From IMG/VR virus record IMGVR_UViG_3300042504_001487, positions 1-62,499 of that record: 62,499 nt of DNA. One strand, written 5' to 3'. Origin of the DNA: a virus. Every line of letters starts with the position of its first letter. The first letter of the stretch is position 1. Below are positions 1,984 to 62,063 of this stretch, one piece after another. The translations under genes were made by a program, and so were the position numbers. The notes beneath the pieces are model-generated. The model worked only from the letters and a program-made list of their open reading frames with translations, did no database searches and was not told the origin of the DNA.

Positions 1984-2294
1984 AAATCGACCCCGTCTGG
2001 ACCATCATCGTCATTACCACCATCGTCATCACCTTCCTCGCCTTCTGGTTTGTCTTCGTAGTTCGACAGATCTACGCGGTGTTCATCACCACCAAAGAGA
2101 AACGTGTTGCTCTGGAAGCCCAGCGACACATGCTTCGCTTTTGCCAAAATCCGACTCAGCGCAACTGGCAAACCGCGTGGACCTTCATCACGAAAAACCA
2201 GATTTCGCTCAACGATCTGGAATGGCATCTGGTCGAGAGATTCACCAAAATGGGGTACATCACCAACTTTCCACCCGATGCCGAACCCTCGTAA
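1980..2294 (+). CDS. Hypothetical membrane protein, 104 aa
   Basis: A GTG start at 1980 is chosen because it overlaps the preceding TGA by 4 bases (GTGA), matching the rest of the operon. Residues about 6-30 form one strongly hydrophobic segment rich in Ile, Val, Thr and Phe, with a short N-terminus and a basic, helical C-terminal domain. A small inner-membrane protein is likely; no family recognised. Confidence 0.6.
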   Translation: MKIDPVWTIIVITTIVITFLAFWFVFVVRQIYAVFITTKEKRVALEAQRHMLRFCQNPTQRNWQTAWTFITKNQISLNDLEWHLVERFTKMGYITNFPPDAEPS

Positions 2295-2511
2295 AAACCT
2301 CAAAGGCAAAACTTTCGGCAGTCTCACCGTGCTGCGTCTGGCGAAGTCGGACAACAGCGGCAACACCCAGTGGCTGTGCCTCTGCGACTGCGGCAACGAA
2401 ACCACCGTGCGCTACCAGCACCTTTCGACCGGACGCACCAAGTCGTGTGGCTGTTCTAAGAAAAGCGGTCGCAGCCTTGATCCGTTTAGTGAAGAGGCGT
2501 TTTGGGGCTAG
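2278..2511 (+). CDS. Small zinc-finger-type DNA-binding protein with C-terminal FWG tag
   Basis: 77 aa from ATG 2278, which overlaps the previous gene by 17 bases. It follows the pattern of the short phage domain with GKTFGSLTVL, then WLCLCDCGNETTV, then TKSCGC: four cysteines for a zinc site, often found next to HNH or AP2-type endonucleases. The protein ends in SEEAFWG, the C-terminal tag shared with several other proteins of this phage. Its last 26 bases overlap the convergent gene at 2486. Confidence 0.65.
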   Translation: MPNPRKNLKGKTFGSLTVLRLAKSDNSGNTQWLCLCDCGNETTVRYQHLSTGRTKSCGCSKKSGRSLDPFSEEAFWG

Positions 2512-17934: not shown

Positions 17935-18012
17935 ACTCCAACACACAAATCCACTATTCTGACGCACTATTATGAACACATACGGAAAATCTCCTTCGCA
18001 GTATTTCATGGG
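17921..18012 (+). repeat. Promoter/leader-peptide repeat, copy 2
   Basis: CCAAATTCAGATAGACTCC, 17-base spacing to TATTCT (17955-17960), ATG at 17972, then a coding part for TYGKSPSQYFM. Its first bases overlap the end of the oxygenase coding region. Confidence 0.8.
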
Positions 18013-18163
18013 CAAAAGCCCCAAATACAAGGCGGCTAAGAATAAGATAGAAGGCAAGAGCGGTGGAAAGGGGAAAGGAAAACCAAACATCCAGCCAAGC
18101 AACCTGGGTACGTTTCGCACCCCAAATTCAAATAGACTTCAACACATAAATCCACTATTCTGA
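17972..18163 (+). CDS. 63-aa protein with KTYGK-PSQ leader motif
   Basis: The start MNTYGKSPSQYFMGKSPKY aligns with the 18173 protein; the remainder is Lys/Gly-rich (GGKGKGKPN) and disordered. Its last 14 residues are read through repeat copy 3 and so are probably incidental. Likely a short duplicate of the next gene's N-terminal part, preceded by its own promoter-like element. Confidence 0.5.
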   Translation: MNTYGKSPSQYFMGKSPKYKAAKNKIEGKSGGKGKGKPNIQPSNLGTFRTPNSNRLQHINPLF

Positions 18164-18226
18164 CGCACTCTTATGTCCGACAAAAAACCTACATACGGAA
18201 AACTCCCTTCGCAAGGGTTCATGAAC
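18122..18226 (+). repeat. Promoter/leader-peptide repeat, copy 3
   Basis: TAGACT, a 17-base spacer, TATTCT (18156-18161) and ATG 18173, followed by codons for KPTYGKLPSQGFMNRNPRY. This copy drives the full-length 352-aa gene and may be the ancestral one. Confidence 0.8.
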
Positions 18227-33100: not shown

Positions 33101-33575
33101 GTCGAACCCGTATGACACCCCGTTGCCGGGCGCGTGGAACGTGCTCAAGAAACCGGGCTTCAAAACCCTCCTGTCCAGCGACAACATGGTGGGTGTTCGC
33201 GAGGAACGACGCGCCCGCCGCGAAGACGATCTTACCAGTTCGTTCGCTCAGAACATGGTGGGTGAGAAGTTTGGCACCCTCAAGAACACCTTCAACCGCT
33301 TGAAGGGCAAGGCAACCCCCAGGACCAAGCAAGAGGAAGAGATATACAACATCCTCAAACCCGTCATGTCGAAACAGTTCTATGGCACCCAGAAAAACGA
33401 CGGAATGTACGACGTGTTGCAATCCTACGCCCGCATGAAAGCCCAAGGACTGCAAGACACCCCAGGAGGCAAGTTGCTGAAAGCTGAGGCTGATCAGGTG
33501 GTAAAGGACTTGGAGCAAACTGCCGATGAGCTTCAGAAGCCCCTGGAGTATCTCCGCACCCACACTCTCCCATGA
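21147..33575 (+). CDS. Giant polyvalent protein (4142 aa) with GHKL, metallopeptidase-like and ART modules
   Basis: One uninterrupted frame, probably packaged and injected. Approximate layout: helical 1-290; Gly/Ala-rich hydrophobic zone 290-420; HEALHH zinc-peptidase-like site (1048); flank DAMDAEYMAAVE-GDVAKQQ (1201) and payload A, ending with PLSQRFNPKSNSTLYS (about 1405); GHKL-type ATPase with EVFQNAVDA, DTGTGM (1490) and GGGFGLA (1517); HEALHQD (1925); second copy of the flank (2034), ADP-ribosyltransferase-like module (AAGYDIGPVYHGTEQ, 2064) ending with the same PLSQRFN motif (2207); HFRDVPNYVAHMRMNDRT region (about 2410); HEIGHLFDF (2958); hydrophobic helices near 3525 and 3760; basic C-terminus. 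Such proteins bundle effectors that act on the host at entry. The module calls are motif-based. Confidence 0.8.
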   Translation: MATSTVTDWDEIEADPDFSSLPQESRVRMFDDWERNFNRTLLEDADLDKVKPEGLNRFAATNAVRRRKLAGEDVSDPDAAAKTWAEQKQAEAKLAQQSLKDYADVEDKKFRLNDARSMPGVDEFGQASPEWEEGVSKASQNLEAAEAKFTPEVREQAKAANEALKGERKIATLQGNIYTDPALVLNKDEFRQQVLDSDASPEAKALKLASFQSEKKRYLDEAANTLTKGDPQIPLAESFPKFLESKGFNLDREMVQQSEGKLDYSPIQKQRELTQEYLTKMQDRGWFRKIGSAIATGVATGMLDIGTQAVGTAAMLTGDEEKSKIAAELSRASGDIGAAQGLEGDMQATGGTFAGGVSRLGTGMAPMLLPGGAVGGIARLAGAGAGAATAAAVGASALTAGAQTAGSQFGEVYDHLRRQGSTHEQAFGVSRNAAVLSGAVTTALTALGGATGVESLLRQGGKDLVKNRLLSALKAVPGGAAAEIAEELPDEYISQLVSAFAKDPNVSPSQVTDEFAANAPDLMLQIAALGGAGAGVGRFRETTTDPAKAREAEFPTAGAPPPLKPQDYENRAAGGQPIFNEEGDVIGVAPPGATPEETAAYREEIRSAAKAAIPEVVEPIDGVDPAITEEMDARLAAGKASGLADQTLAELERQKAAQGAPAPVAEAPTPKRPLANLTDEELEQRIQDSSRLANETAVEGSPDAAFFTNAAEKYRAEKARRVAATTQAATPAPAAETLGVTSPPAPTLETPEGAARNAPKPKATQTASGKKLGDKIVDGENVAIVNEYDQSTPGMPTELTVLEVDGIVDAKSNKVFATRRDMTPNEITVAQEKIRQRNALAKEMGMPQEEIPQPITPQGAAPTTATEGQPMPGGSSEAEWTPTVNAPAAFTASNGQKLVGTVQSIKDGKAVVSFLWNGNENTQTVPVSQLARPVASLTEPPKYQYTQEQNTRKMGKHFPTAPGVYTNYNFRKAFASMAKDTSLSRIYRMLAKVMSKMPVFANMDLHVVADGDVRYAGEYSFSNGRSAIAVNLRQVGRGKVDALGTILHEALHHLTLAKVRDPQNAWENEIIDKLDTIRGRVLEYAQQNGLGERFDYELDTVEEFISAVFTRPDFQNFLASIPDSFAPGVAVGKFRSVLSEIFRRLAELVTGEMVAKGSTMEQAMTSVLALFETPHRAVETGKLEALNAARSGTGTAKSLADDAMDAEYMAAVESGDVAKQQSMVDAAYSDFVRNTVMLGDRFYPATFIRFGNPPTNTEGSQVASTGFDGGIREKGVSVIGAWHDTVRDKYVIPTGSEQAVAGVSDLVAQNRPVFVVSGSVVKDVGSDTEPLMEAGTVKTQKQLNYSDLIEENNPDFTLDGEQYDSGEEGTKNAYTGGKERWWKSKGMPFPSLKNITYKDGKPVPLSQRFNPKSNSTLYSLAEEPERQLEGANMGRAMEMLGASLYAKNVSGTIGKEVFQNAVDAVMKNENGKARTIWYGQPDANHFVVADTGTGMNPDIIVDKFLRAFVSGKDVGAGGGFGLAKLAFLGSPRKFRIISVGTSTDGRKVKTTLQGTGKSFLHFNEHPPRIRFQPDTDITLAPGFTMRFSYEDAQALPTGTAMEFDMDEPYNASSAISAGMEYVEGVQSSGIKKGTTDLGYGNKATGDELLREMGYSSARSDESMAATLSSSKPYTVLHSFSTPSADVDVIVREGAKIKKTRFSYVPVLNRSIFQFSTSFNLNNEVALPEGLVVNIKPKVRAGTADYPFTTNRESVTDSVKREIERFFQEAGARENAKLNAKYANAIDSAAPIPGTGKVLLDTASTLPPALLDDLTNSASVQRALGDVTKIQDAILSMLGRKFGPKFQRAKFAGLITGARAYGVHFGKPGSLEPTAIYHDIWKEMAMAEEEFSVLHENDPAVKDLGVDDQMRLMYDTFLTKVTGVAFHEALHQDVDSEGEPLARELTFKAGDIVDAVVSLLNNTHTQDEINTTINDLIAQKRRIDTYEDSQAASEFVTAQGGYDGYAMAERGQAQGSREGSGKAGARVGTAPFSPADDAMDAEYMAAVEAGDVAKQQAMVDAAAKAAGYDIGPVYHGTEQKGLTEFYGGWWSDTKKVAREFGSQRYTAFLKGPLADGDTLRDLYKKFRGDDIDPDSGEPLYDSEIADIAMSGSRFGDYVRAAGYQGIEVWDESNAETGMAYAVFDPNQIKSADPITRDEQGNVIPLSQRFNPKSNSTLYSPADDSEPFYSKLAQVVEQKMPNRADAQTIKGIINNTQTGIKAEEIKWSGIVPWLESQTGPITKQAVLDYLAADGAVRLEEVRMDDSNAVSADEARQYFGIAKREWDAMTPESRADMIKDASERKKRVHTRYQQYQLPGGENYREVVLAMPLQFQKTTPSKLTDQYNRGVITQAEYFQRLESLVEPSGGNYTSSHFRDVPNYVAHMRMNDRTDAEGKPGAFIEEIQSDRHQAGREKGYKINTRSPNTIIKDTDKVLGELRSRTGEYIPTDEHWATHPDLSAKWDALTSELEQARQDVGRVPDAPFRTTWPLQMFKRALADAVAAGKQWIGWTTGETQAERYDLSKQIKEVAYYWDGPGDPDGQLVAVNHQGQEVMNQHSLKPDALADYIGKETAEKLVNAPDQNGMRKLSGLDLKVGGEGMKGFYDNILPKEIGKYVKQWSGRVEQTELVTGETKVDDSEWKRRNYPGVPWDAEMRAEYERHQKPIVEKAPIWRVDITPQMKAGVRSGQTLFSPADESDQRESDAVLGVMMEDDRFEEGVKMYDKAKRRQLGSPPQPSANTSTPPRFTNSAQFAAAFEAAYLRGDFDYFLEALKQADRHIYVPEMKRYINASKLGDKDAAERLEWFRHAIAGTIPANVKPQTKTPPPPQPSSAGAPPVGMPPPPPAATPPPKAGVSNRPMLTLNTAAMGMIAKMLGANVRINTLLRRARGRIKISMADGSKIELSKQLFKDPVQAAKTLAHEIGHLFDFLPASGFGKKLAGRIAPLGNFRKVFGDDLADWSMDGGKKMKLSKINQLIIDELVGLSKKWRGDFTYQPGTYRSLGSELYADFISAILNDPMWTAKNAPYATLGFLNALEQKPEVDQAYQLVISLVQGGSLYKALAEANRGKSTTALERLIAKSSALMRTKKVLKDAARGLYRSMFGSWLPTAIRDGGIWKSYWKRLKNMGTSGDYNWAQEEASQFAVRHITQFDNDMAKAVGIPLKLAGIDPEYLQRLQTNNRIIHERRRVGKLIEEDPAKARQLLKWMVDAGLLGKDVQDEVDATPDDGLYKKTAEVIYKLHASGDGFERALKAARRKGAPADAEKALYAFDVSGFMLNPNVFTMESAEADNADIEKTLGPDQFGELERINEGYHDLIKRTMVQAYKMGLFRQSTWDDVIVPNFGVYVPFMPIKYFTGYVKGGVGPARVGTANDLMAPHVVGIRKMHALINRMQRQKQALLLIDVFNNMGLHNELEPVEDENFDRQKAEELVKQSKNTISYVSYWDRGEYKWVKVNGTDAVPLVMNSDPDDLAAVYQLLKANTRLWRMNFTIFSIAFNVANTLRNIATPSVDVGPKAGYKAAKELLSIFPQMGKWVWAKMAGRDMTSIVAASISIEHAMHKPGMPVSKELQEFYDRGILQPSPDVASLRMTQEELARSVMGALSSPELLLHGGHKAAKDLNWFDKTLKQYFYSAVDALSFLGSVSEAAPKIAAYRALKEKMVPEKITATRANGKTTVTGLNPDGTRKMVPAFTDAQATYLATLEGIPRPGVGGSDNALWEMVLLFFRIMGQSWRKHLIMATAPQTRAGFLMRHMLFQGAKFGLQAMAANGVIDYLIALGAAAAAGGDDDDIEKYKQVDWAEAVSRQSDHKLSRGGVGPLICWVLPDGSIEPPYGHKSIPADWVPIMPRLPGTEFSRELDPMSYYATSKTIAPTIAPVNDDVFWNDYMRGLVSLNPAFDVVSDAMSIVGPTPPRDSYRGREKVEQRVWDEGYIARMLGLGEHHLRSFGIGSNPYDTPLPGAWNVLKKPGFKTLLSSDNMVGVREERRARREDDLTSSFAQNMVGEKFGTLKNTFNRLKGKATPRTKQEEEIYNILKPVMSKQFYGTQKNDGMYDVLQSYARMKAQGLQDTPGGKLLKAEADQVVKDLEQTADELQKPLEYLRTHTLP

Positions 33576-34159: not shown

Positions 34160-34553
34160 CCCTCTTCTGGATCAAGAACTGGCGCTTCTCCGAGTCGTCG
34201 CAAAACTGAGCCAACAGGTTCTTGGTGCCCTCGCTGGCTTTTGCCATCGCTGCCACGCAAACGCTGCACAGGTTTTTCTCCCCCGACATCACGTCGGAAA
34301 ACAGCTTTTCCGGGGAGTGCTCGTTCGGGTGGAACGCGGCATTCTTGGCAGCGTCTTGCGCCAGTTTGGCGAGGTCCAGCTTGACGCCGAGTCCCAGTGT
34401 CCGCTCAACCGCCGAATCGTACGCCTCGCCGTAGGCTTCGTAGAGTTTTCCGAACATCTTGTGGTCTTCAAAAAACGTCGGCCCTTGCGTGTCGTGATGG
34501 GCGCGTTGGGCAAACAGGCGGAGGGTCAGCAGTTGGAGGGCGACGAGGTTCAT
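34137..34553 (-). CDS. Dps/ferritin-like protein
   Basis: 138 aa. Residues 1-55 match the first two helices of the Dps/ferritin family: LQLLTLRLFAQRAHHDTQGP (His in helix A), then FFEDHKMFGKLYEAYGEAYDSAVERTLGLG (Glu, His, Tyr and Glu at di-iron and ferroxidase positions). Dps proteins store iron and protect DNA from peroxide. The C-terminal half is less typical, with a CSVC pair. It may protect packaged or host DNA, or be a minor virion protein. Confidence 0.6.
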   Translation of the reverse strand: MNLVALQLLTLRLFAQRAHHDTQGPTFFEDHKMFGKLYEAYGEAYDSAVERTLGLGVKLDLAKLAQDAAKNAAFHPNEHSPEKLFSDVMSGEKNLCSVCVAAMAKASEGTKNLLAQFCDDSEKRQFLIQKRVTPSSNS

Positions 34554-34586
34554 GGTTCGGTATTGTAGCGGGTGGGGTGGTGGTGG

Positions 34587-35747
34587 TCAACTTTCTGTCA
34601 TCGGAATGGTGTTCTGCACCCAGCCTGCTTTGGCGACGGCATAGCCGTTGGTCGGGAACGTGCCAATCAGGTCCGGTGCCTCGACGCCCAGCTTCTCAGC
34701 CAGATCGGTGACGCGCATCTTCTTGCCGTTGAGAGCGGCTTCAATGTCGGCACGAGTGATCCGCTTGGTCGGCTTTGGCTCGGACGCTTTAACCTTCACT
34801 GCTTCGGGCAGATCCGACGATTTGACGACAGTGTGAACCGGAGATTTGGGTGCGATCATGGGGATGATCTCGGTGGGCTTTTCATCGTCGCCCCAGAAGT
34901 CTTCACCTTCTGGTTCTGGCTCTCCCTCGTCAGCGTCACAGACACTAACAGGACTGGCAACGTCAAGGTTCCCGTTCTTGGGGCCACGCCCCAAGATGAT
35001 GTCGGCTAGCGATCCGTCCTTGCAGCCATGCACCAGCACGGCCTTGGTGCTGACGAGACCGCCGCGCTCGCGTACCACGCGGTCGTGCTTGACCGAGTCG
35101 CAGACAAGGTTGGTTCCCTCCATGCGGTAGTTGCGTGTGGCCCACATGTCGCTGATCAGTTCGGTGTGCGACACGCCCATGTGGTAGATGGGCCAGCGCA
35201 AATACACGTCGAACGGAGTATTGGGGTTCATGTAGCTCGGCTTGGCGAGATCGACGATCAAGGGTTTGATACGCTCGTCGCGTTCCATGTTTGCCGGGTA
35301 GATGCCGGTGCCCATCAGCATGCGGTCGTTGTCGCGGTAAACGATCTTGCCGTTCTCGGCGTATGGGGTGTCAACGACGACTCCACGGAACGGTGTGCCG
35401 CCCATGCGGTAGTCTTCCTGCAAAAGCGTGGCCCAGCGTGGCACCCGTGGCAGCATGTCGGCTTCCATCCACAAGAACGGTTCCGTGTTGCCCATCGAGC
35501 CGAGAGCAAACACGACGGCGGAGAAATGGTTGTTGCAAGCGATAGGGGCACCGCCGTCAAAGTCTTGACCGAGAACGTGCGTCTGTGCGCCAAGGAGTTC
35601 AGCGGCCTCGTAGGCGGCGTCCTTGGCGGCAGGTGTTGGGAAGAGGATCACGGGGAACTCTTCCAAGCCTCCGAATTTGAGCAGACATTGTGTCAGAGCG
35701 GGCAGCAGGTGCTTGTCGTGGGCGGATACGGGGATGGCGATTTTCAT
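34587..35747 (-). CDS. Putative GT-A glycosyltransferase with HTH-like tail and internal EDFWG
   Basis: 386 aa. Residues 1-250: MKIAIPVSAHDKHLLPALTQ, then FLWMEADMLPR (acidic DxD-like site near 92-96), and a helical end; it resembles the N-terminal half of the 36133 protein (FIWIEADVSP). Residues about 278-290 carry EGEDFWGDDEK, the phage's tag motif at an internal place. The C-terminal 65 residues (TRADIEAALNGKKMRVTDLAEKLG) look like a small helix-turn-helix. Sugar transfer is inferred. Upstream 35748-35812 has a CATATT-type -10 candidate. Confidence 0.55.
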   Translation of the reverse strand: MKIAIPVSAHDKHLLPALTQCLLKFGGLEEFPVILFPTPAAKDAAYEAAELLGAQTHVLGQDFDGGAPIACNNHFSAVVFALGSMGNTEPFLWMEADMLPRVPRWATLLQEDYRMGGTPFRGVVVDTPYAENGKIVYRDNDRMLMGTGIYPANMERDERIKPLIVDLAKPSYMNPNTPFDVYLRWPIYHMGVSHTELISDMWATRNYRMEGTNLVCDSVKHDRVVRERGGLVSTKAVLVHGCKDGSLADIILGRGPKNGNLDVASPVSVCDADEGEPEPEGEDFWGDDEKPTEIIPMIAPKSPVHTVVKSSDLPEAVKVKASEPKPTKRITRADIEAALNGKKMRVTDLAEKLGVEAPDLIGTFPTNGYAVAKAGWVQNTIPMTES

Positions 35748-40303: not shown

Positions 40304-40846
40304 TCAGGTATTCTGTGCCTTGGACGGGCGGTTGTCCACGAGTGTTCCGTGCTTCCGGGCGTCGAGCACGATGCCGCAGCCAGCCGCGACACAGCCGAGG
40401 TGGTGTGCCCCAGTGTCAGGGTCGATGTCTTCGCCTTCAATCAGGCAGTCGATGTGCCGTTTCATCGCACCGAGATAGGTCATCAACTCGACCTTGTTAT
40501 CCCTCCAATTCCAGGGTCCGTATTTCACCGCGCCCCGAGACAGGGCTTTCGCCACTTCGTCGTTGAGAGATGGCGGGATGAGTTGAAGCTGGGGTTTCTG
40601 GATGGCCTGCGAGGCTTTGGGGTCAGTGTTGGGTGTCATAATGGGGACGGCGTACCACGCATACGATGCCGCAACCTTCCCCTCGTCGCTTGAGATTTTC
40701 CACTCTGGTTTTGGTTGCAAGTCGTCCCACACCATCGCCCCTCGGGGGACGACGTGGGGAATGTCGTTCCCCCAGATTAGAGTGTAGCCTTCCGGCGCTG
40801 TTGGTTTGTCGTCGTTTTTCATGGTGTCTGTGTGGTTAAATTTCAT
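40304..40846 (-). CDS. dATP/dGTP diphosphohydrolase-like protein (DUF5664 type)
   Basis: 180 aa; ATG 40846 overlaps the helicase stop by 4 bases. The conserved part is AKALSRGAVKYGPWNWRD (about 105-120), then LGAMKRHIDCLIEGEDIDPDTGAHHLGCVAAGCGIVLD: the all-alpha family related to MazG-type pyrophosphohydrolases, with acidic/His metal ligands. It probably hydrolyses purine dNTPs. No PurZ or other modified-base gene was seen, so nucleotide-pool control is more likely than base replacement. The N-terminal 85 residues are extra. Confidence 0.65.
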   Translation of the reverse strand: MKFNHTDTMKNDDKPTAPEGYTLIWGNDIPHVVPRGAMVWDDLQPKPEWKISSDEGKVAASYAWYAVPIMTPNTDPKASQAIQKPQLQLIPPSLNDEVAKALSRGAVKYGPWNWRDNKVELMTYLGAMKRHIDCLIEGEDIDPDTGAHHLGCVAAGCGIVLDARKHGTLVDNRPSKAQNT

Positions 40847-42279
40847 CCCCAAAAATCCTCCTCGTTAAACTCTGGTTCCTCCACTGGCACAAACTTCAAG
40901 GGTTTGCCTTTGCGGTCGCCTTCAAGCAACATCAGGGCGGTGAGTAGCCGCTGCTCCGTGTTGCGCTTTTCTTCTAGCACCTCGGCCACAACATCGTCCA
41001 CGGTATCTGGCACCATCAAACGATAAACTGTGACTACGTCTTTCTGTCCCCGCCGATGGAGACGTGCGATGGTCTGCTCATAGCACTCACGCGAGTAAGT
41101 AAGGGACATCCACACCATGGTCTGTGAACCGGTTTGGAGATTTAGACCGTGGCCCATCGACATCGGGTGCCCGACCAACATCGGAATCTCTTTACGGTTC
41201 CATTGCGAGATCATTTGCATCTGCAATGCCGGTGTTTTCGCATCGGCAAAAAAGCGGGCCTGCGGAAACTTGCGACGGATACGGTCTTGCTCGTGTTTGA
41301 AATCACAGATCACCAGCAGCGGCCCTTTGGTTTGCTTTGCTATCTTGGCTAGAGCGGCGGTCTTGCAGTCGTGGACCTCGTGGACCTTCTTCTCGCCGTC
41401 GTAGATGGCACCGGAGGTGAACTGCAACAGCTTGCGCACGAGCACGGCGGCGTTGGCTGCGGTGATCTGCACTTCCGACCGAAGTTCGAGGATCAGTTCT
41501 TTCTTGAACTCCTCGTACTGCTCCAAGACGTGTTCCGGCAACTTAACCTCCACGTCCTCAATGTGGCAGTCCGGCAAATCTTTGAGCCAGTCGGACGTAC
41601 GCAGGGTGAGAGTGATGTCGGCAATGCGCTGGTCGATGCGTTCGGCTGCCCCGGGTATCGGCTCCCAGTTGTATTGCTGGTAATCGGTGGCGGCGAAGTA
41701 GGTTTTCTTGAAGAGGTCGAAGCTGCGTCCAAGGCGTTGCCCGTCATCAAGCAGCCGCACTTGGGCAAACAGATCGAGGAGACTGTTGGGCGCTGGAGTT
41801 CCAGTCATCGCGACTCGGTGCTTCACTTGCGGTAGCTCGCGACGAAGCAGGTTGATTCGTTTGCTGGCAGGATTTTTCGTACGGGTTGACTCGTCGTACA
41901 CGATCATCTGGTAAGGCACTGTGCCGCCGCGCTTCTCTACCAGCTTCACCAACATCGGGATGGCCTCGTAGTTCACAACATACACATCAGCCTGACCGGC
42001 GATGAAGGCGCGACGACCCAACGGCGTACGCAGGTTGGCGACTTTGAGGTGCTGGAATTGTTCCCATTGCTGCACCTCCATCGGCCACGTCAAATTACAC
42101 ACTCGCACCGGGGCGACGACCAGCATGGCCTCAACCTCCAGGTTTTGCTGCAACTGGCAGAAAGCGGAAAGGATACTAGAAGACTTACCTATTCCCATGC
42201 CTACGAGGGCAAACACGACATCTTGGTTGACGATCTTGTCGATCATCAGTTTTTGAGGCGGTTCGGGTGTAAAATTCAC
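40843..42279 (-). CDS. SNF2/SF2-type DNA helicase with C-terminal FWG tag
   Basis: 478 aa; GTG 42279 is chosen because it overlaps the upstream stop (GTGA). Motifs: GMGIGKSSS (I), VAPVRVCNLTWP (Ia), YDESTRTKN (II), MTGTPAPN (III), and in the second half LLVICDFKHEQDR, GLNLQTGSQTMVWM and ARLHRRGQKDVVTVY (V-VI). This is the helicase usually found with the phage family A polymerase, VRR-NUC and DUF2800/2815 set. The last residues are NEEDFWG, the shared tag. Confidence 0.85.
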   Translation of the reverse strand: MNFTPEPPQKLMIDKIVNQDVVFALVGMGIGKSSSILSAFCQLQQNLEVEAMLVVAPVRVCNLTWPMEVQQWEQFQHLKVANLRTPLGRRAFIAGQADVYVVNYEAIPMLVKLVEKRGGTVPYQMIVYDESTRTKNPASKRINLLRRELPQVKHRVAMTGTPAPNSLLDLFAQVRLLDDGQRLGRSFDLFKKTYFAATDYQQYNWEPIPGAAERIDQRIADITLTLRTSDWLKDLPDCHIEDVEVKLPEHVLEQYEEFKKELILELRSEVQITAANAAVLVRKLLQFTSGAIYDGEKKVHEVHDCKTAALAKIAKQTKGPLLVICDFKHEQDRIRRKFPQARFFADAKTPALQMQMISQWNRKEIPMLVGHPMSMGHGLNLQTGSQTMVWMSLTYSRECYEQTIARLHRRGQKDVVTVYRLMVPDTVDDVVAEVLEEKRNTEQRLLTALMLLEGDRKGKPLKFVPVEEPEFNEEDFWG

Positions 42280-43843: not shown

Positions 43844-44155
43844 TCATTTCCAGAACCCTCCTTCACGGACTAAGTTGTCAATGAACTGCTTGCCGTCGTG
43901 GACGTTGTCGCACCAGCCGACGTTGGCCCCAGCTTTCGTCAGCAGTTCCATCTCGTGCTCTTGCGCTTTGGTGGGCTTGCACCCGCCGCGCTTGACTTCC
44001 AGAAAGCCGACCGCACCACCTGGGGCGATGATCAGCCGATCAGGCACCGAACGATTGTTGGGTGAGACGAACTTGCGAACGTAGCAACCTTTGGACTTGG
44101 CGTAGTCGCAGATTTTTTTCTCGATCTCCTTTTCAAGCTGTGGTGGTGTATTCAT
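43844..44155 (-). CDS. VRR-NUC nuclease
   Basis: 103 aa. The PD-(D/E)xK core is VPDRLIIAPGGAVGFLEVKRGGCKPTKAQEHEMELL: Asp in VPDR, then E-V-K, then the helix with K-x-x-Q, as in stand-alone phage VRR-NUC domains (Holliday-junction or structure-specific nucleases). ATG 44155 overlaps the preceding stop by 4 bases; the purine-rich GAGGAGAAGGAG just upstream is one of the few Shine-Dalgarno-like sequences here, lying in the upstream gene's poly-Arg codons. It ends GGFWK, close to the FWG tag. Confidence 0.85.
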   Translation of the reverse strand: MNTPPQLEKEIEKKICDYAKSKGCYVRKFVSPNNRSVPDRLIIAPGGAVGFLEVKRGGCKPTKAQEHEMELLTKAGANVGWCDNVHDGKQFIDNLVREGGFWK

Positions 44156-44295
44156 CTCCTTCTCCTCTTTTTGGTTTTGCTGTTGTGGCGTTGCGTCCGA
44201 CATTCGGGGCACAGTAAAAAGTCGGCTGACTGTTTCTGCAACTCGAATGTTCCGCCGCACCGACAAATACGTTTTCTGGTGTTTGCTATGATCAT
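44152..44295 (-). CDS. 47-aa zinc-ribbon protein
   Basis: ATG 44295, 4 bases after the polymerase stop; the stop overlaps the VRR-NUC start. The sequence has CRCGG, then CPECRTQRH, a four-Cys zinc ribbon, and a basic tail KTKKRRRR. Position between polymerase and nuclease suggests a small DNA-binding partner. Confidence 0.65.
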   Translation of the reverse strand: MIIANTRKRICRCGGTFELQKQSADFLLCPECRTQRHNSKTKKRRRR

Positions 44296-44299
44296 GACA

Positions 44300-46471
44300 T
44301 CACTTGGTGTAATAGGGTTGAACTTGACCGTCGGCTGCCACGGGCAAGCCTTTCGTCCATTCAGGCACGTCTGTCATGAGTCCGACGAGTTCTTCGATGG
44401 ACTGGTTTTTGCGGGTGTAAGCGAGAATCTGGTCATGGATCAGCGAGCACACCTCGTAGCCTGCTTCTTCCGCTTTGATGATGCCGTTGTTGAGCAGGTC
44501 AGCGCCGACACCTTCTGTAAAGTTCTGCATCAGCAAGCCGCCGAAAAGTCCACATCTCCCCCAGATAGCTTTGCCGCGAATTTGACCCCAGTAGGTGAGC
44601 GATTGGCGTGTCTTCACTCGACCGTCAGGCCATTGCTCGATCTTGCCTGTCTTCTTGTCACGCACCACGGTCTCCTCAATTTTTGGGCCGCGATAAGCCA
44701 GACGGCGTCCAGAAGGAAGTTTGGCGAACAAATACTTGGAACCAGCAGTGACGGCACAGAAAAACTCGATACGGTAAGCAGTATGGCGGCTGCCGAAATT
44801 CGTCACGGCATTTTTGGCAGCACGGTCGTAGGCGTACCACGCTTTGACGATGTTCGGGTTGGCCTCGCGCCACTGATCCACGATCTCCTGCAATTTGTTT
44901 TCTCTGGCCTTCTCCACCCACATCGCTTTGTCTTTGGAAGACAAGTCCTCTACAAGTCCAACAGGCTTGCCGTTCGTCGTGCATCTGTCGAGGAAAGCCT
45001 GCAACTCATCTTCCGTGACATCGAAATCCATGCCATTCGCCTGCGCCATGGACAGCAGCGCGTCAGGTCCGCCCATGAATCCCAAAGCCAACTCTGAAAT
45101 TTTACCCTTCTGTCTGTCGGGGTGATGTTTGCCGTGCTCTTTGGCATAGTCGAGCATCTCCTGCAACGGCATCCCAGTCATGCGGCAAATAGTCGCCTCG
45201 TAAATCTTTCCGTGGGTGCGAAACACTTCCAACTTCCACTCCTCGTTTGCCAACCATGCCGCGATACGGGCTTCAATGCTGCTGAAGTCCACGTCGAAAA
45301 TCGGACCAGTTTCGTCGTGAATGAAGTGACGGATGCACGAGCCGATGACCTCCAGCAGAGGTCCGTAGAACAGTTCGATGTGTGCCTCGCTCTCACCTGT
45401 CATGATGTCGGCGTACGCGGCGTCGGTGTTCTTGATGGTCGGGCGTTTGAAGTTCTGCGGCTGAACCAGTCTGCCGGACGCACGCCCTGGACCTGCCCCG
45501 TAGAACTGGATGGTGCCGCGCACGCGACCGTCGGCGCAAGCGCACTCGATCATCGCCTTCACCTTCTTGATGCTGGCGAAGCTCAATGACTTCTTGATTT
45601 GCAGCACACGTCCCACCTCTGAGGTAGGGTCGAACTCCACAGACTCAAGCTGCTCGTCCAGCGTGTCGGCGCGGAGGTTGTCCCCCTCAAACCCGTGATC
45701 CTTGAGCCACTTTAGGAGAACGTCGCGCTGCGTCGGGTTGAATCCGGTGAGTTGCCGAAACTCCTCCGTCATGCGGGCCTCGTTGGCTTCGATCAGCGAT
45801 TGCGCGTGACGCAGGGCAGGCAAGTTGACCGGCAAGCCTCGGCTGTTGATTGCCATGTCGGCCTGAAACGCAGCCAACGTGTCGCCGGTCAACTCGAAGT
45901 GCTTCAGAGCTTTGTGGATGCCCTGTTCTACGCGAACGTCTTGAACGCAGTATTCGCAAAAAGCGATGAAGTCGTCTTGCCGGTAGATGGGGTGGATAAA
46001 CTCGCCGGTGGCTTTCTGCGGGATGGAGAATTTGCGGATCAGTGCTTTGCCTTTGCTGTCTTTCTGCTGAAGCAGTCCGAGTGTTTCGGCGGCTTTCTCC
46101 AACGACGGCGGGATTGCAGCACGCCGGGACATCGCAGCGGTGCAGCGCCAACGGCTTATGTCGATCTGGAACCAACGATTGTTTGGGCAGTGGTTGGTGA
46201 TCGCCTGTTCAAAGTATGCGTTGTGCGCGTACACCGGAGCATCGCTGTTGTTCATCTCGTTGATCAAATCCATCGCTCCAGGAGAAGATTCGCACACGCT
46301 CATGTCGTCGAACGTGAAAAATGGATTGACCCACAGCAGAGGTTCGCCGTCGTCCTTTGCCACAGCGGCACACAGGATCTCGGTGGACGGGTCTTCCGCG
46401 TAACGGAAAGCGCCTGTGCGCTTGATGTCCGCCATCGAACGTGTCTCAAAGTCTAAATGCCATGCTGTCAT
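44300..46471 (-). CDS. polA: Family A DNA polymerase with 3-prime-5-prime exonuclease domain
   Basis: 723 aa from ATG 46471 (GTATG context; longer frame rejected). Exo I motif LDFETRS at residues 6-12. Polymerase motif A DVDFSSIEARIAAW (about 391), motif B RQKGKISELALGFMGG (about 452), motif C LIHDQILAY (about 680). Motif C has HDQ where most family members have HDE. By alignment of motif B to T7 polymerase, a Leu stands where T7 has Tyr526 (E. coli Phe762). It replicates the phage genome with the SNF2 helicase, primase-helicase and DUF2815-like protein. Confidence 0.92.
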   Translation of the reverse strand: MTAWHLDFETRSMADIKRTGAFRYAEDPSTEILCAAVAKDDGEPLLWVNPFFTFDDMSVCESSPGAMDLINEMNNSDAPVYAHNAYFEQAITNHCPNNRWFQIDISRWRCTAAMSRRAAIPPSLEKAAETLGLLQQKDSKGKALIRKFSIPQKATGEFIHPIYRQDDFIAFCEYCVQDVRVEQGIHKALKHFELTGDTLAAFQADMAINSRGLPVNLPALRHAQSLIEANEARMTEEFRQLTGFNPTQRDVLLKWLKDHGFEGDNLRADTLDEQLESVEFDPTSEVGRVLQIKKSLSFASIKKVKAMIECACADGRVRGTIQFYGAGPGRASGRLVQPQNFKRPTIKNTDAAYADIMTGESEAHIELFYGPLLEVIGSCIRHFIHDETGPIFDVDFSSIEARIAAWLANEEWKLEVFRTHGKIYEATICRMTGMPLQEMLDYAKEHGKHHPDRQKGKISELALGFMGGPDALLSMAQANGMDFDVTEDELQAFLDRCTTNGKPVGLVEDLSSKDKAMWVEKARENKLQEIVDQWREANPNIVKAWYAYDRAAKNAVTNFGSRHTAYRIEFFCAVTAGSKYLFAKLPSGRRLAYRGPKIEETVVRDKKTGKIEQWPDGRVKTRQSLTYWGQIRGKAIWGRCGLFGGLLMQNFTEGVGADLLNNGIIKAEEAGYEVCSLIHDQILAYTRKNQSIEELVGLMTDVPEWTKGLPVAADGQVQPYYTK

Positions 46472-46929: not shown

Positions 46930-47553
46930 TTACATGTCGTCGATGTCCAGATCGGCGGCAGGTTTCTTGGCAGCCGGTTTGGCGGCGGGAGCGGCTTCGG
47001 ACTCGTCGTCCAGGTTCACACCAGCAAACTCAGATTCGGCGTCCACCGGAGCAGCGCCAAACGCTTCGCCGTCGGCGTGGAAGATCACCACGCGCAACTC
47101 AGCGTTGATACGCTTGCCGTACTTGTTGTCCATGGCCCAAAGGCGCACGGAGGCGTGTACGTAGCAGCCAGCGTAGGGCTTGTTGTCCTCTGCGGTCAGA
47201 GGCTCGAACGCCTTGTTAACCACGCGGGGTTTGCGGTCCTGCTTGGAACTGGCGGACAAGAACATGACGCCGTCGCCATATCCATCGCTGCCGTCTCGCT
47301 CGGAGCCGTCGCGGAGGCACAGCTTGATGCCGCCCGGAGTTTTGCCCTTCCACTTGTCCTTCTTGAGGGAGTCGATGCGGGCCTCGACGGCTTTGATGGC
47401 TTCAGCGTTGGCCTTCTTGTCGAGGATGAAGTTGGCGCTGTAGAAAGGATCTCCGCCTTCGTCACCAAAGGGTGCGGGCTTGAAGATTTTCGGGTAAGAC
47501 AACCTGACGTTTTTCAGCAGGATGACGTTTGGATCAGTTACGGCTTGGCTCAT
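46930..47553 (-). CDS. DUF2815-type single-strand DNA-binding protein
   Basis: 207 aa. An OB-fold-like beta-rich core (VILLKNVRLSYPKIFKPAPF, YSANFILDKKA, VMFLSASSKQD, GCYVHASVRLWAMDNKYGKRINAELRVV) and the fixed neighbour DUF2800 identify the phage DUF2815 family, thought to bind ssDNA. The C-terminus is an Ala/Lys linker followed by an acidic tail ending DLDIDDM, comparable to the acidic tip of bacterial SSB. It does not carry the FWG tag. Confidence 0.8.
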   Translation of the reverse strand: MSQAVTDPNVILLKNVRLSYPKIFKPAPFGDEGGDPFYSANFILDKKANAEAIKAVEARIDSLKKDKWKGKTPGGIKLCLRDGSERDGSDGYGDGVMFLSASSKQDRKPRVVNKAFEPLTAEDNKPYAGCYVHASVRLWAMDNKYGKRINAELRVVIFHADGEAFGAAPVDAESEFAGVNLDDESEAAPAAKPAAKKPAADLDIDDM

Positions 47554-47648: not shown

Positions 47649-48848
47649 TTATGCTTCGTTCAAATCTACTCCAGCGAAGTCGCCGGTCAGGTCGCTCTGA
47701 TACGTCTTGCGTGGGTCGCTTTCAGGCACGGCCACCGGGGAGCCGGGCGGCTTGATGATCAGGCGTTGAAGCTCGACCATCTTCGCGCCTTTCATCTTGT
47801 CGGTGAGTTTCTCGGCCACGGCTGGCGTGATCACGTCAGACGGCGGATAGACTTCGTCGTGTGGAAGGTTCAGGCTGAGAAGCAGTTTCCCGGCAGCGAC
47901 GGGGTCGGTCCAGCGGCGGTGTCCGCCACGAGATAGCACCAGCTTGACGCCGGGCAGGGCTTTGCCGGAGATCAGACGGGCACTGACGAACTTCTCAATC
48001 TCTTTGAGCCAGTCCAGCAGCTTGTCGCGATTGATGAAGACCTGCGCTAGCCGTTCGTCGGTAATGGTGGGCGCTGCTGGAAGCGTGTTGCCCTCCAGTA
48101 CCTCCAGCACTTCGCTCTTGAAGTCCTCCAGCATGGCGTTGTTGTAGGTCTCGCAGATGGCGGCACCACGGCACCACTTGCAGATACTCGGACCGGACTT
48201 GAACACGCCGGGGTCTCCGCGCAAGATGGCTGCGGCTTTGGGCGTGATCCGTTCGTCGGTGAACTTCTTGAGTTCGCCCCAGTTGGTTGTCCAAGTGACG
48301 TGATCTTGCTCCAGCCGTGGCTGGAAGATGGTCATCGTGACGGGGTAAGAGTCGGCAGGCAGGTCCATCCAGAACCCGTCGAACATGGATTCGATCAAGC
48401 TGCGGGCGTAGATTGCCATTTGCAGGTTGTTCTCGCTCTCGACCGGGTCGTAGCCGTATTTGTAGTCAACAAGGTGGACGCCACCCTTGGTGATGGCGTG
48501 GAAGTCCACCGTGCCGCGTTCGCTGGGGAGGTAGTAGAGTGGCGCTCGGAACTCGGCACCCCAGCGAATCACGTCACGCTTCGGCCCCATGACTTCGTGG
48601 CAGAACTCGGCATACGCTTGGCCGTGACGCAGCATTTCTTTGCTGGCCCACTTGGGGGAGGGTTTGCCTAGCAGCAGGTATTCGGCAACCGTGTGGGCCT
48701 TCGTGCCTTCGATGGCGGACGGTCCTGACTCGTCAGGAGGAAGTCGATGCTCGTTAGCCTTGACGAAAGCAAGGGCAGCCGTGCATTCGGTCCAGGTGTG
48801 GGCTTTGGACGGTGAGAGGCGGGAGTGTTCGGGAGTGGTGTCGGCCAT
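47649..48848 (-). CDS. DUF2800 family RecB-like (PD-(D/E)xK) nuclease
   Basis: 399 aa from ATG 48848, 5 bases beyond the upstream stop. HSRLSPSKAHTWTECTAAL near the N-terminus and TVDFHAITKGGVHLVDYKYG (the D...VDYK nuclease core, about residues 113-132) are family hallmarks, followed by a late Cys cluster (CKWCRGAAIC, about 226) as in iron-sulfur RecB/Cas4-type exonucleases. It probably resects DNA for recombination or replication with the DUF2815 protein. Confidence 0.85.
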   Translation of the reverse strand: MADTTPEHSRLSPSKAHTWTECTAALAFVKANEHRLPPDESGPSAIEGTKAHTVAEYLLLGKPSPKWASKEMLRHGQAYAEFCHEVMGPKRDVIRWGAEFRAPLYYLPSERGTVDFHAITKGGVHLVDYKYGYDPVESENNLQMAIYARSLIESMFDGFWMDLPADSYPVTMTIFQPRLEQDHVTWTTNWGELKKFTDERITPKAAAILRGDPGVFKSGPSICKWCRGAAICETYNNAMLEDFKSEVLEVLEGNTLPAAPTITDERLAQVFINRDKLLDWLKEIEKFVSARLISGKALPGVKLVLSRGGHRRWTDPVAAGKLLLSLNLPHDEVYPPSDVITPAVAEKLTDKMKGAKMVELQRLIIKPPGSPVAVPESDPRKTYQSDLTGDFAGVDLNEA

Positions 48849-53066: not shown

Positions 53067-54281
53067 TCAACCCCAAAAGTCGTCAGAGGGTTTTTTGCTC
53101 TCCGGTGCCTTCACACGCTTCGGAAAATAGGCGTACATCGTGTGCCGGGCGGCGTTGACGCGAGTGGCGAGCACCACGTCCACGAAGGCGACCGAGTGGG
53201 TTGCCGTCACCTCTTCCACGAACTTCATCGCGTGTTCCAACGGGATAAACAGCTTCGGCACGCTGTCCTCCAGCACGTCCTCGGCGTAGTCGGTCAACGT
53301 GCCAAGCTGTGACGCTTTGCGAGCGGTTGCGGCCTCGTCGAGGAACAGGGAGAAGCCGTTGCTCTCGTGCAGCATGCGCAGGGTAGCGCGGGGGGCGGCG
53401 GCTCGCATGGCGGCGAGCTTGTCGGTGAATATGGATTTGAAAAAGGTCATGGCTTGGCGGCATGAGTTTGATTCCTTCGTTGATGTTTTCTCTCCCCCGC
53501 TCTGTGCCAGAGCAGGGACGTTCGCTGAATGAATCCGCATCGCAGCGTCTTCGTGGTGTCGCGGTGAGATTTCCGCACCGATGAAGGCACGGCCTGTTCG
53601 TTTTGCTGCCACTCCTACTGTCCCGCTTCCGGCGAATGGGTCGCAGACAGTTTCCCCTGGCGCGGAGTAGAGCCGGACGGCCTTTTCCGCCAGCGAGGAC
53701 GGGAATGGGCATGGGTGATTCACTCGCTCCGGTTGGATGCACCACAGTCCGATTGTCTCTTTTGCCCACCGCTCCACAGTCCAGTCAGGCTTTGCCTTTG
53801 GTTGTCCGGGTTTCAGGAATACCAGCACCGGCTCATACGGGTTTCGGATGCTTGGCGTGTGCGGGTGGTTCATCGCGTAGCCGCCAGCGTGCGCGTTCTC
53901 CGCTGTCGTCCCCTTGGCCCACATGATTTCATCCCTGAACTCCCATCCAGCCGCCGTGATTGCTTCGCGGTATTTGTCGGGGCGGTATTTCTTTGGACGC
54001 TTCCCCCACCACAGCGGGACGTTCCATAGCGCATACGCTCCAGCGCGGCATTCGTCCCACGTCAGCGCGGCCACGTCACGAATCATGCTCCAGTATTCAT
54101 CCTCCGGCACATCGTCCAGATACCCGTCATAGGGCTTCTTTGCGTTGTAGGGAGGCGAGGTTAGCACCATGTCCCAAGGGCCAGTTCCACGCAGCACTTC
54201 ACGACAATCGCCAAGAATCAGCGAACAATCGGATGCAGAGAACCGCGCCATCGCGTCTGTTTCGATTTCGAGAGTTTTCAT
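53067..54281 (-). CDS. Beta-class DNA methyltransferase fused to an unknown domain, with FWG tag
   Basis: 404 aa. Motif IV VLTSPPYNAKKPYDG (about 36-50) precedes motif I CDPFAGSGTVGVAA (about 210), the beta-class order; the TSPPY form is typical of N4-cytosine enzymes but also occurs in N6-adenine ones. From residue 278 (an internal Met, MTFFKS) follows a 127-residue domain not part of the enzyme, ending SDDFWG. Target sequence unknown; the genome ends are dense in CCTGG. The start overlaps the upstream stop by 4 bases. Confidence 0.85.
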   Translation of the reverse strand: MKTLEIETDAMARFSASDCSLILGDCREVLRGTGPWDMVLTSPPYNAKKPYDGYLDDVPEDEYWSMIRDVAALTWDECRAGAYALWNVPLWWGKRPKKYRPDKYREAITAAGWEFRDEIMWAKGTTAENAHAGGYAMNHPHTPSIRNPYEPVLVFLKPGQPKAKPDWTVERWAKETIGLWCIQPERVNHPCPFPSSLAEKAVRLYSAPGETVCDPFAGSGTVGVAAKRTGRAFIGAEISPRHHEDAAMRIHSANVPALAQSGGEKTSTKESNSCRQAMTFFKSIFTDKLAAMRAAAPRATLRMLHESNGFSLFLDEAATARKASQLGTLTDYAEDVLEDSVPKLFIPLEHAMKFVEEVTATHSVAFVDVVLATRVNAARHTMYAYFPKRVKAPESKKPSDDFWG

Positions 54282-54642: not shown

Positions 54643-54963
54643 TCAACCCCAGAACTCTTTATCGTCTGAGGTGGCATCGGCTTGCTTGAGCTTCTCACGC
54701 AGCAGGCGCATACGGTAGGCGATCCATTGCGGATGAGCGTTCTGCTTTTGCGCGTTCCATGCGGCGGTTTTGCTGAGGTCGATTTTGCTGTCGAGGATTC
54801 GCGGCAAGCTGCCGCTGCCGGGTTTGCGCGGAGCCTTGGGCTTGCCTTTCTCGGCGCGGTGACGCAGCACGGTGTTTGGGTGGCAACCGACGATCTTGGC
54901 AATCTCTTCGTTGCGCATAGTTTTCCATGAAATGGTTTTCGGGTACTTGATGGGTTCTGACAT
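54643..54963 (-). CDS. HTH protein with C-terminal FWG tag, 106 aa
   Basis: Residues about 17-40 (MRNEEIAKIVGCHPNTVLRHRAEKG) are a helix-turn-helix of the type used by phage and transposase DNA-binding proteins; a basic Pro-rich linker follows and the protein ends DDKEFWG. The tag codons (TTC TGG GGT TGA) differ from those of other tagged genes, showing protein-level conservation. Probable regulator. Confidence 0.65.
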   Translation of the reverse strand: MSEPIKYPKTISWKTMRNEEIAKIVGCHPNTVLRHRAEKGKPKAPRKPGSGSLPRILDSKIDLSKTAAWNAQKQNAHPQWIAYRMRLLREKLKQADATSDDKEFWG

Positions 54964-61090: not shown

Positions 61091-61411
61091 ATGACACCAG
61101 AACGCATATTACTGAACCTGCATTTAGTAACCCGTATCAGAATGGACAAAGTGAAGCTGCCCATGGGCAGCAGTCGCACTAAATGGATAAACGACGCCAT
61201 CCGTGAAAAGTTGGACAGGGACAACCCCGAGAGCGTGCATCCCATGGAGGGCGTTCAGCCCGTGCAGCGCATGGAGATCGTGAAGCCCGTGCAGCCCGTG
61301 GAGATCGTGAAGCCCGTGAAGCCCGTGGAGATCGTGAAGCACATGGAGGGCGATGACTTCTGGGGGGATGCCGAAAGGATGCGGGAACTGGTCAAACGTC
61401 ACGCGCGATAG
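61091..61411 (+). CDS. Small RHH-like protein with tandem repeats and internal DFWG
   Basis: 106 aa. Residues about 20-42 (VKLPMGSSRTKWINDAIREKL) look like a ribbon-helix-helix DNA-binding segment. Residues 50-84 are a degenerate repeat of V-x-P-V/M-E-I-V-K-P (nucleotides 61238-61345). HMEGDDFWGDAER follows at about 85-97, i.e. the tag plus a 14-residue extension. CTATG start, near-leaderless. A possible autoregulator of the divergent region. Confidence 0.55.
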   Translation: MTPERILLNLHLVTRIRMDKVKLPMGSSRTKWINDAIREKLDRDNPESVHPMEGVQPVQRMEIVKPVQPVEIVKPVKPVEIVKHMEGDDFWGDAERMRELVKRHAR

Positions 61412-61505: not shown

Positions 61506-62063
61506 ATGGCGAACACGTTAGCAACACCTTATTGGCCCGAAATACGCAGATTAGCAGAGCAGGGGGTTCCTCTCCCCAAGCTGGCGGAGGACTTTGGTCT
61601 CGCGGTTAATACGATATATAACAAGTCAGCCGCAGAGGACTGGCTCACGCCGTCACGGGTTAGAGCGAAGGTCGAAAAGTTAACCGTTCTAAAGCAAAAG
61701 CATATAGCGGGAAGCGGGGGAGACCCGCTTTTGGGGGGAAAAAGCATCGCCGAAAAATCAGAATCCCTGATTCTTGAGACGTGGGAGACCCGCGCCGCAG
61801 ACCTGCGTAATCTCAGCTACAACGTGGCGGTCGAAGCCATCCAAGCCGCAAAAGGGCAGATCGTAATCGAGAGCGCATCAGACCTTAAACATGCAGTTCA
61901 CGTTGCCCGGCAAGCTACTGGCATCCTAGATGCTGATGCGCCCCAGATTCAACTGAGTCTGTTTGCGAATCAGGACATATCCGGACCCGCAATTATGGAG
62001 GCTCAAACGTATGAGGCCGAGACATTGCAGCCAGTGTCAGAAGATGCTGATTTCTGGGGATAA
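61506..62063 (+). CDS. HTH protein with FWG tag, candidate small terminase subunit
   Basis: 185 aa. Residues about 8-40 (WPEIRRLAEQGVPLPKLAEDFGLAVNTIYNKSAAEDW) form a helix-turn-helix as in phage small terminases and transposase-like proteins; the middle is helical (oligomerisation) and the protein ends EDADFWG. It directly precedes the terminal repeat array; small-terminase genes often lie near the site they recognise. A gene regulator is the alternative. The tag here uses codons TTC TGG GGA TAA. Confidence 0.6.
   Translation: MANTLATPYWPEIRRLAEQGVPLPKLAEDFGLAVNTIYNKSAAEDWLTPSRVRAKVEKLTVLKQKHIAGSGGDPLLGGKSIAEKSESLILETWETRAADLRNLSYNVAVEAIQAAKGQIVIESASDLKHAVHVARQATGILDADAPQIQLSLFANQDISGPAIMEAQTYEAETLQPVSEDADFWG

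Follow-up and report, generated by a model that had tools for sequence, protein, structure and literature searches.

A shared C-terminal FWG peptide on unrelated DNA-acting proteins of an uncultured phage, with lineage-specific counterparts in other phages

Docking tails have so far been known one or two at a time, as in the gp2.5 and gp4 proteins of phage T7, the tips of single-stranded DNA-binding proteins (SSBs), and clamp ligands. In T7, the acidic C-terminal tails of the gp4 helicase bind basic patches of the family A polymerase gp5 (PMC12593628), and the gp2.5 tail is implicated in binding both the polymerase and the primase-helicase (PMC5686142). The DNA analyzed here is a 62,499-nucleotide stretch of a virus (IMG/VR record IMGVR_UViG_3300042504_001487, positions 1 to 62,499; hereafter the window), whose replication module, consisting of a family A DNA polymerase (PolA), a gp2.5/Enc34-type SSB, a primase, a DUF2800 protein, a VRR-NUC nuclease, and an SNF2 helicase, has a homologous counterpart in Hafnia phage Enc34. 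Proteins with the FWG peptide, and the other genes needed for the argument, are as follows.

2278..2511, + strand: 77-residue zinc-ribbon protein, a relative of the N-terminal region of HNH endonucleases; ends PFSEEAFWG (tag about 2485-2511)
34587..35747, − strand: 386-residue protein; its tag, EGEDFWGDD (F codon near 34898), is internal and lies in a linker that precedes a short IF2_N-like segment
38357-40303, − strand: presumed large terminase (TerL), with no Pfam or PHROG family at E<=0.01
40843..42279, − strand: SNF2-type DNA helicase (PF00176, phrog_62); ends EFNEEDFWG (tag about 40843-40869)
43844..44203, − strand: VRR-NUC-type nuclease, homologue of the Enc34 VRR-NUC protein ORF8; ends GGFWK
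44300..46435, − strand: PolA, untagged
46930..47553, − strand: gp2.5/Enc34-type SSB (PF10991, phrog_112; PDB 5odj, E=3e-21); ends DLDIDDM
47649-48848, − strand: DUF2800 nuclease-like protein
53067..54281, − strand: N6/N4 DNA methyltransferase (PF01555), a fusion with a C-terminal 127-residue domain; ends KKPSDDFWG (tag about 53067-53087)
54643..54963, − strand: 106-residue HTH-like DNA-binding protein (phrog_664, E=2e-4); ends SDDKEFWG (tag about 54643-54666)
61091..61411, + strand: 106-residue protein, ribbon-helix-helix-like by eye at its N-terminus, with internal EGDDFWGD (about 61346-61369)
61506..62063, + strand: 185-residue HTH protein (HTH_7, below the curated cut-off); ends SEDADFWG (tag about 62040-62063)

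The five C-terminal and two internal copies had been reported in a preliminary description of this DNA, and all seven were confirmed, each in a frame that is also a called gene; here and for several of the other phages, gene sets are the calls of our own hexamer gene caller. FWG ends five of the 68 called window genes, against an expectation of 0.003 from the amino acid composition of the window (P of five or more = 2.5e-15); every other C-terminal tripeptide occurs at most twice, and in 2,000 shuffles no C-terminal tripeptide exceeded three. The octamer TTYTGGGG occurs nine times in the window, and because eight copies encode FWG in frame (five at C-termini, three internally; the ninth lies in another sense frame), FWG is not a scattered DNA repeat. 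The described variation in codons (TTT or TTC; GGA, GGT, or GGC) and stops (TGA, TAA, or TAG) is also present. The third internal FWG, at 56131 (HFWGWQ), has no acidic context and looks fortuitous.

The tag has the form [DE]-[DE]-x-F-W-G followed by a negative charge, which is the C-terminal carboxylate or, in internal copies, D or E. Internal copies continue as FWGD or FWGE in both the window and its relatives, as if the acid stood in for the carboxylate. Internal FWG plus acid is retained in the 34587-35747 counterparts of related phages G009, G011, G013, and G008, and relatives of the 61091-61411 protein have DTDFWGEDE or QDADFWGEDE at the same place. The GGFWK end of the VRR-NUC nuclease, whose orthologues in related phages end in FWG or FWE, reads as a degenerate copy of the tag, which would make this nuclease the sixth window carrier. 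The 185-residue HTH protein is a possible small terminase subunit (TerS); upstream of its tag it has IQLSLF, which fits the bacterial sliding-clamp consensus QL[SD]LF and is kept in relatives.

Related contigs were fetched from IMG/VR by scans with the helicase, the tag, and TerL. They have up to seven called FWG-ending genes per record, or eight with a C5 cytosine methyltransferase gene that the caller did not select but whose tagged frame has the conserved C-terminal motif of that family. By Pfam and PHROG matches, about a dozen unrelated families are tagged in this lineage: the enzymes are the SNF2 helicase, the VRR-NUC-type nuclease, C5 and N6/N4 methyltransferases, and a PAPS reductase, with Dam-type methyltransferases tagged in two versions (one just below the Pfam cut-off), and the others are a DUF4326 protein, a GNAT protein, two HTH proteins, the zinc-ribbon protein, and a 149-residue protein of unknown function. 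What the carriers chiefly have in common is work on DNA: binding it, unwinding it, cutting it, or modifying it. A wide IMG/VR scan for [DE][DE]FWG-TGA returned 111 stretches, and among the 80 listed the motif recurred within a contig only in this lineage; the singleton matches outside it look unrelated.

The docking-tag reading offered in the preliminary description was open to two objections, that the ending belongs to each carrier's own family and that close relatives lack it, and it withstands both. Among the best matches in 1,798 phage records, helicase homologues align only to about residue 452-462 of 481, so the helicase tag is an addition to the family. The tag is kept in orthologues at 58-92% identity, and it stays while the linker before it changes: the window helicase and those of G011 and G014 are 58% identical and share FNEEDFWG, with linkers that are unlike one another and contain indels. 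The 106-residue HTH-like protein is 92% identical in four related phages with an identical tag, and the 185-residue HTH protein retains its tag at 67-68% identity. In the related phage G020 (TerL 56-58% identical), which is untagged, the helicase, PAPS reductase, and related methyltransferases all lack the tag.

Two carriers illustrate how the tag and the domain before it can be separated. The 77-residue zinc-ribbon protein matches phrog_374 (HNH endonuclease) only in residues 190-253 of that family, and is 47% identical to the N-terminal region of HNH endonucleases that the same phages encode at full length and untagged, so a DNA-binding part was retained and a tag added. Its orthologues in G004, G011, and G014 end PLSEEAFWG, and their last seven codons differ only synonymously. 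The C-terminal part of the window methyltransferase corresponds to the free-standing 149-residue protein of relatives, which is 70% identical and ends EESDDFWG; methyltransferase types are swapped between relatives, and all are tagged.

The claim that the peptide and not the DNA is conserved was mostly right, as the synonymous codons indicate, except that some genes behind the helicase have copied its tail DNA. The extra genes at this position differ between phages (C5 methyltransferase, DUF4326, GNAT) and all are tagged. In L010 the final residues of the new gene (EPETEFDEESFWG) copy the tail of the neighbouring helicase (EPETEFDEEAFWG). In L021 (IMGVR_UViG_3300031578_003692) a GNAT-domain protein at 730-1896 has two tags in series. 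The first has lost its stop and runs on into what looks like a copied helicase tail, VGLSIKPAEE.., which resembles the VGLSVKPAEE.. of another helicase type. The C5 methyltransferase gene of L004 has tandem tag DNA, of which only the second copy is in frame. These cases indicate that tag transfer is sometimes a DNA-level event, with maintenance at the level of the peptide.

The window's own lineage also includes a variant. In G006 the VRR-NUC protein ends in FWE, the DUF2800 protein in FWD, the SSB in DDWD, and the helicase in NWDD, and this is a smaller, parallel shift of the tag. A second tail motif, [DE]FAG[VI][DN]L, is common to the window DUF2800 protein and SSB (..TGDFAGVDLNEA and ..ESEFAGVNLDDES..) and is conserved in relatives; the G006 DUF2800 protein bears both tail motifs (DFAGVDLTEKDFWD).

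Shared tails of other sequence occur in named phages. In Enc34 the primase, DUF2800 protein, SSB, TerS, and others all end in [DE][DE]V. In an unbiased scan, named phages with the same replication module and control phages were searched for recurring C-terminal tripeptides against a within-tail null of 1,000 draws. [DE][DE]V ends eight proteins in Enc34 and nine in the Salmonella Chi-like phage 118970_sal1, and [DE][DE]L ends 11 in Aeromonas phage phiWae15 and 10 in Pectobacterium phage MA12; all four counts lie above all 1,000 null draws. Signals are weaker for Ruegeria phage V7 (D[LI]LG, five proteins; top tripeptide count reached by one of 1,000 null draws), BcepNazgul (GL, nine proteins), and BPP-1 (DL[VI], four proteins). 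The scan gave no shared tail in lambda, T7, N4, Streptococcus phage P9, Staphylococcus phage IPLA35, Brevibacillus phage Emery, Pseudomonas phage AAT-1, and others, and among the gram-positive phages with the same module that were examined none was found; Proteus phage P16-2532 was set aside since its called genes look broken. The SSBs of Paenibacillus phage Rosalind (OP503984) and Brevibacillus phage Emery (KC595516) end in DEDFLG or EEDFLG, one residue from DEDFWG, and in Salmonella phage P22 (NC_002371) three called genes end in [DE]AA, a count reached by six of the 1,000 null draws.

DNA methyltransferases are further carriers in these phages, as are, among others, an exonuclease associated with recombination, a RusA-type resolvase, a ParB-like protein, and a replication-initiation protein. 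For some tagged proteins a role in replication is not obvious, among them small proteins of unknown function and a recurrent small carrier whose gene directly follows that of the major capsid protein (Enc34 17801-18085; phrog_7559, an uncharacterized family), in the position of lambda FI. By reciprocal best hit this post-capsid protein is tagged in five of five phages, and the small proteins at 34302-34589 in Ruegeria V7 and 18009-18215 in BPP-1 may be counterparts of it.

For families present in at least four of the seven tagged genomes, the orthologues are tagged in seven of seven cases for DUF2800 and the SSB, six of seven for the primase, five of five for the post-capsid protein, four of four for the exonuclease, and four of five for TerS. 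Tagged orthologues always bear the tag of their own genome, and the pattern of one group is almost without matches in genomes with another tag. When tails were shuffled within families between genomes, the observed agreement of 98 compared with a mean of 31 and a maximum of 63 in 20,000 permutations; the tag patterns were defined after the tails had been seen, and Enc34/Chi and Aeromonas/MA12 are pairs without full independence, so the permutation shows association and does not count independent switches.

The host of the window phage is hinted at weakly. A TerL scan of bacterial genomes found neither prophage nor host, and no named phage matched 24 kb of the window in a nucleotide search. Among named phages the window TerL matches only Akkermansia phage Chambord (26% over 31%), which hints weakly that the host may belong to the Verrucomicrobiota. 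Elsewhere in the window, a 4,142-residue protein (21147-33575) has weak matches to ADP-ribosyltransferase (ART-PolyVal) and HATPase domains, both below curated cut-offs, and is a putative polyvalent giant protein. In the related phage G013 (IMGVR_UViG_3300021131_000056), PolA has an insertion of ~330 residues (about 470-805) that starts CIAEGQ, ends VLVHNC, and looks like an intein.

From these sequence comparisons we consider it probable that the FWG end is a C-terminal docking tail, tethering DNA-acting proteins to one shared partner. A shared receptor that co-evolves with its ligands predicts tags that are uniform in each genome, different between genomes, and coordinated in their change across orthologues, which is the pattern seen, and genome-specific tags that change in step across orthologues point to a common partner and are hard to explain otherwise. 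The in-step switching adds to the case made in the preliminary description, although FWG proves to be only one version of a broader phenomenon; counting against docking, the SSB, DUF2800 protein, and primase of the FWG lineage, tagged elsewhere, have no FWG end, many gram-positive phages with this module lack a shared tag, and for some carriers a part in replication is not obvious. That the endings reflect chance, or plain inheritance of a common ending, has next to no probability: SSB-type proteins are usually acidic-tailed, but the count in one genome has a P of about 1e-15, the carriers are non-homologous, most control phages lack a shared tail, and tags switch in concert. A chance origin of the FWG ends was rejected on the window counts against expectation. 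It is also very unlikely that the tag codons (GAGGAGGATTTTTGGGGATGA) are a DNA-level element, either a ribosome-binding site with stop/start overlap or a cassette recombination boundary, with the peptide as a by-product. After the helicase gene, and after some VRR-NUC and methyltransferase genes, an ATGA does overlap the next start, GAGGAGG is Shine-Dalgarno-like, and the helicase-tail copies of the L010 and L021 cassettes and the tandem tag DNA of L004 would suit such an element; however, several tags (window 53067 and a 162-residue Dam-type protein) have neither a start at the stop nor Shine-Dalgarno-like codons, so the features of translational coupling do not accompany every copy, and a pure ribosome-binding or stop-start reading is contradicted by the copies whose stop is not accompanied by a start codon. 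The tag codons vary synonymously, internal copies have an acid in place of the carboxylate, the tags of other genera use unrelated DNA, and the in-frame tag of the C5 methyltransferase is the second copy, which looks like selection on the peptide; a pure DNA motif was rejected on the in-frame octamers, the variable codons and stops, and the start-less copies. C-terminal residues control recognition by ClpXP or Tsp, and the tail could accordingly shield proteins from, or mark them for, a protease that recognizes C-termini; we give this little credence, as the carriers are only a subset of proteins and overwhelmingly DNA-related, the same orthologues are chosen in each lineage, and internal copies would not serve as C-terminal signals.

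If the tag is a docking tail, its hub may be the phage's own PolA, a weak inference by elimination that we hold at somewhat below an even chance. Of the families detected in both the FWG lineage and the tagged Casjensviridae, only PolA never carries a tag, being untagged in all 20+ phages examined; the SSB, DUF2800 protein, primase, helicase, VRR-NUC protein, and methyltransferases are each tagged somewhere. The elimination assumes a phage-encoded hub common to both groups. Against PolA, that of G006 is 81% identical to the window's, yet the G006 tags are FW[DE], and that of G013 is 44% identical, yet its tags are FWG. AlphaFold2 monomer models were of low confidence, with a pTM of 0.37 for the helicase (6-row alignment) and 0.27 for PolA (3 rows). 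That FWG and FW[DE] phages can have highly similar PolA favours a docking tag read instead by a host protein (replisome, clamp, SSB partner, or RNA polymerase) or by another phage protein such as the terminase, and the tagging of TerS and the capsid-adjacent protein in other genera would suit a partner in packaging just as readily as one in replication. We regard such a hub as rather unlikely, but worth serious consideration. Tags differ (V for Hafnia and Salmonella phages, L for Pectobacterium) between phages whose enterobacterial hosts are close relatives, which a phage-encoded hub fits better, though the V/L difference is mild; no tag resembles the bacterial clamp motif, and the window's 185-residue HTH carrier already has the separate IQLSLF; and in the searches made, the large terminases of the FWG lineage and the tagged Casjensviridae showed no relation.

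In the mechanism we propose, with PolA as the favoured hub, the tag would tether many unrelated DNA-acting phage proteins to one partner on replicating phage DNA, in the way that the acidic tails of gp4 and gp2.5 dock on gp5 in T7. Each lineage would use one tag on many DNA-transaction proteins, all of which would change in step on divergence, and new genes would join the set by gaining the tag, sometimes by capturing helicase tail DNA. The broadest form of this proposal, to which we give about even chances, is that the tag is a genome-specific C-terminal 'address label' on much of the DNA-transaction proteome, read by a co-evolving phage hub and swapped in concert, so that the replication, modification, and packaging complex is insulated and incoming genes join only by acquiring the right tail. 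A tag that is uniform within a phage, lineage-specific, and switched on all carriers together implies a co-evolving hub, and it may limit which horizontally acquired genes are compatible with the phage. Such a tag also suggests a reason why replication might be coupled to methyltransferases and packaging proteins, and offers a sequence-only way to list proteins at the phage replication complex, many of them uncharacterized; a peptide of five to eight residues is a simple handle with which to fish for the hub. The phenomenon reaches cultivable phages, including Chi-like Salmonella phages, Enc34, BcepNazgul, and BPP-1, and not just an uncultured one.

A close parallel is T7, in which unrelated replication proteins of one phage have an acidic C-terminal tail ending in an aromatic residue (gp2.5 ..EDGDF, gp4 ..NDTDF), and the window encodes the same type of SSB together with a family A polymerase. 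As in T7, acidic tails with a hydrophobic end are present on at least two unrelated replication proteins of the window, although FWG ends in Gly and not Phe; the window SSB itself (DLDIDDM) lacks the tag, whereas the SSB is tagged in G006 (DDWD) and in seven of seven tagged genomes of other genera. Unlike T7, with two carriers, there are four to 12 per genome here, including methyltransferases, nucleases, HTH proteins, and, in other genera, TerS; the tags are genome-specific and switch in concert between lineages, and the docking partner is one that we infer. The clamp motifs (bacterial QLxLF, T4 gp45 ligands, the eukaryotic PIP box) are alike in that one short motif recruits many unrelated DNA-transaction proteins to a hub, but the tag differs in sequence ([DE][DE]xFWG is not a QL[SD]LF-like peptide), is strictly C-terminal or followed by an acid, and varies between phage genera; no clamp gene was recognized in the window. 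The bacterial SSB tip (DDDIPF) is similarly an acidic docking ligand with a hydrophobic end and carboxylate, but FWG is not the tip sequence, the window SSB has no DDDIPF-like end, and the tip is one tail with many receptors, whereas here many tailed proteins presumably share one receptor. Enc34 and other Casjensviridae have homologous PolA, SSB, primase, DUF2800, VRR-NUC, and SNF2 proteins and a genome-wide tail ([DE][DE]V, [DE][DE]L, or GL), but there it is the SSB, DUF2800 protein, primase, and TerS that are tagged, and in the FWG lineage the helicase, VRR-NUC protein, and modification enzymes. Clamp ligands on many proteins and shared acidic tails on two T7 proteins are already known; no description of shared C-terminal phage tags that extend across a genome, differ between lineages, and switch together was found in the open-access literature searched. 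There is a real chance that it will deserve a category of its own once the hub is identified.
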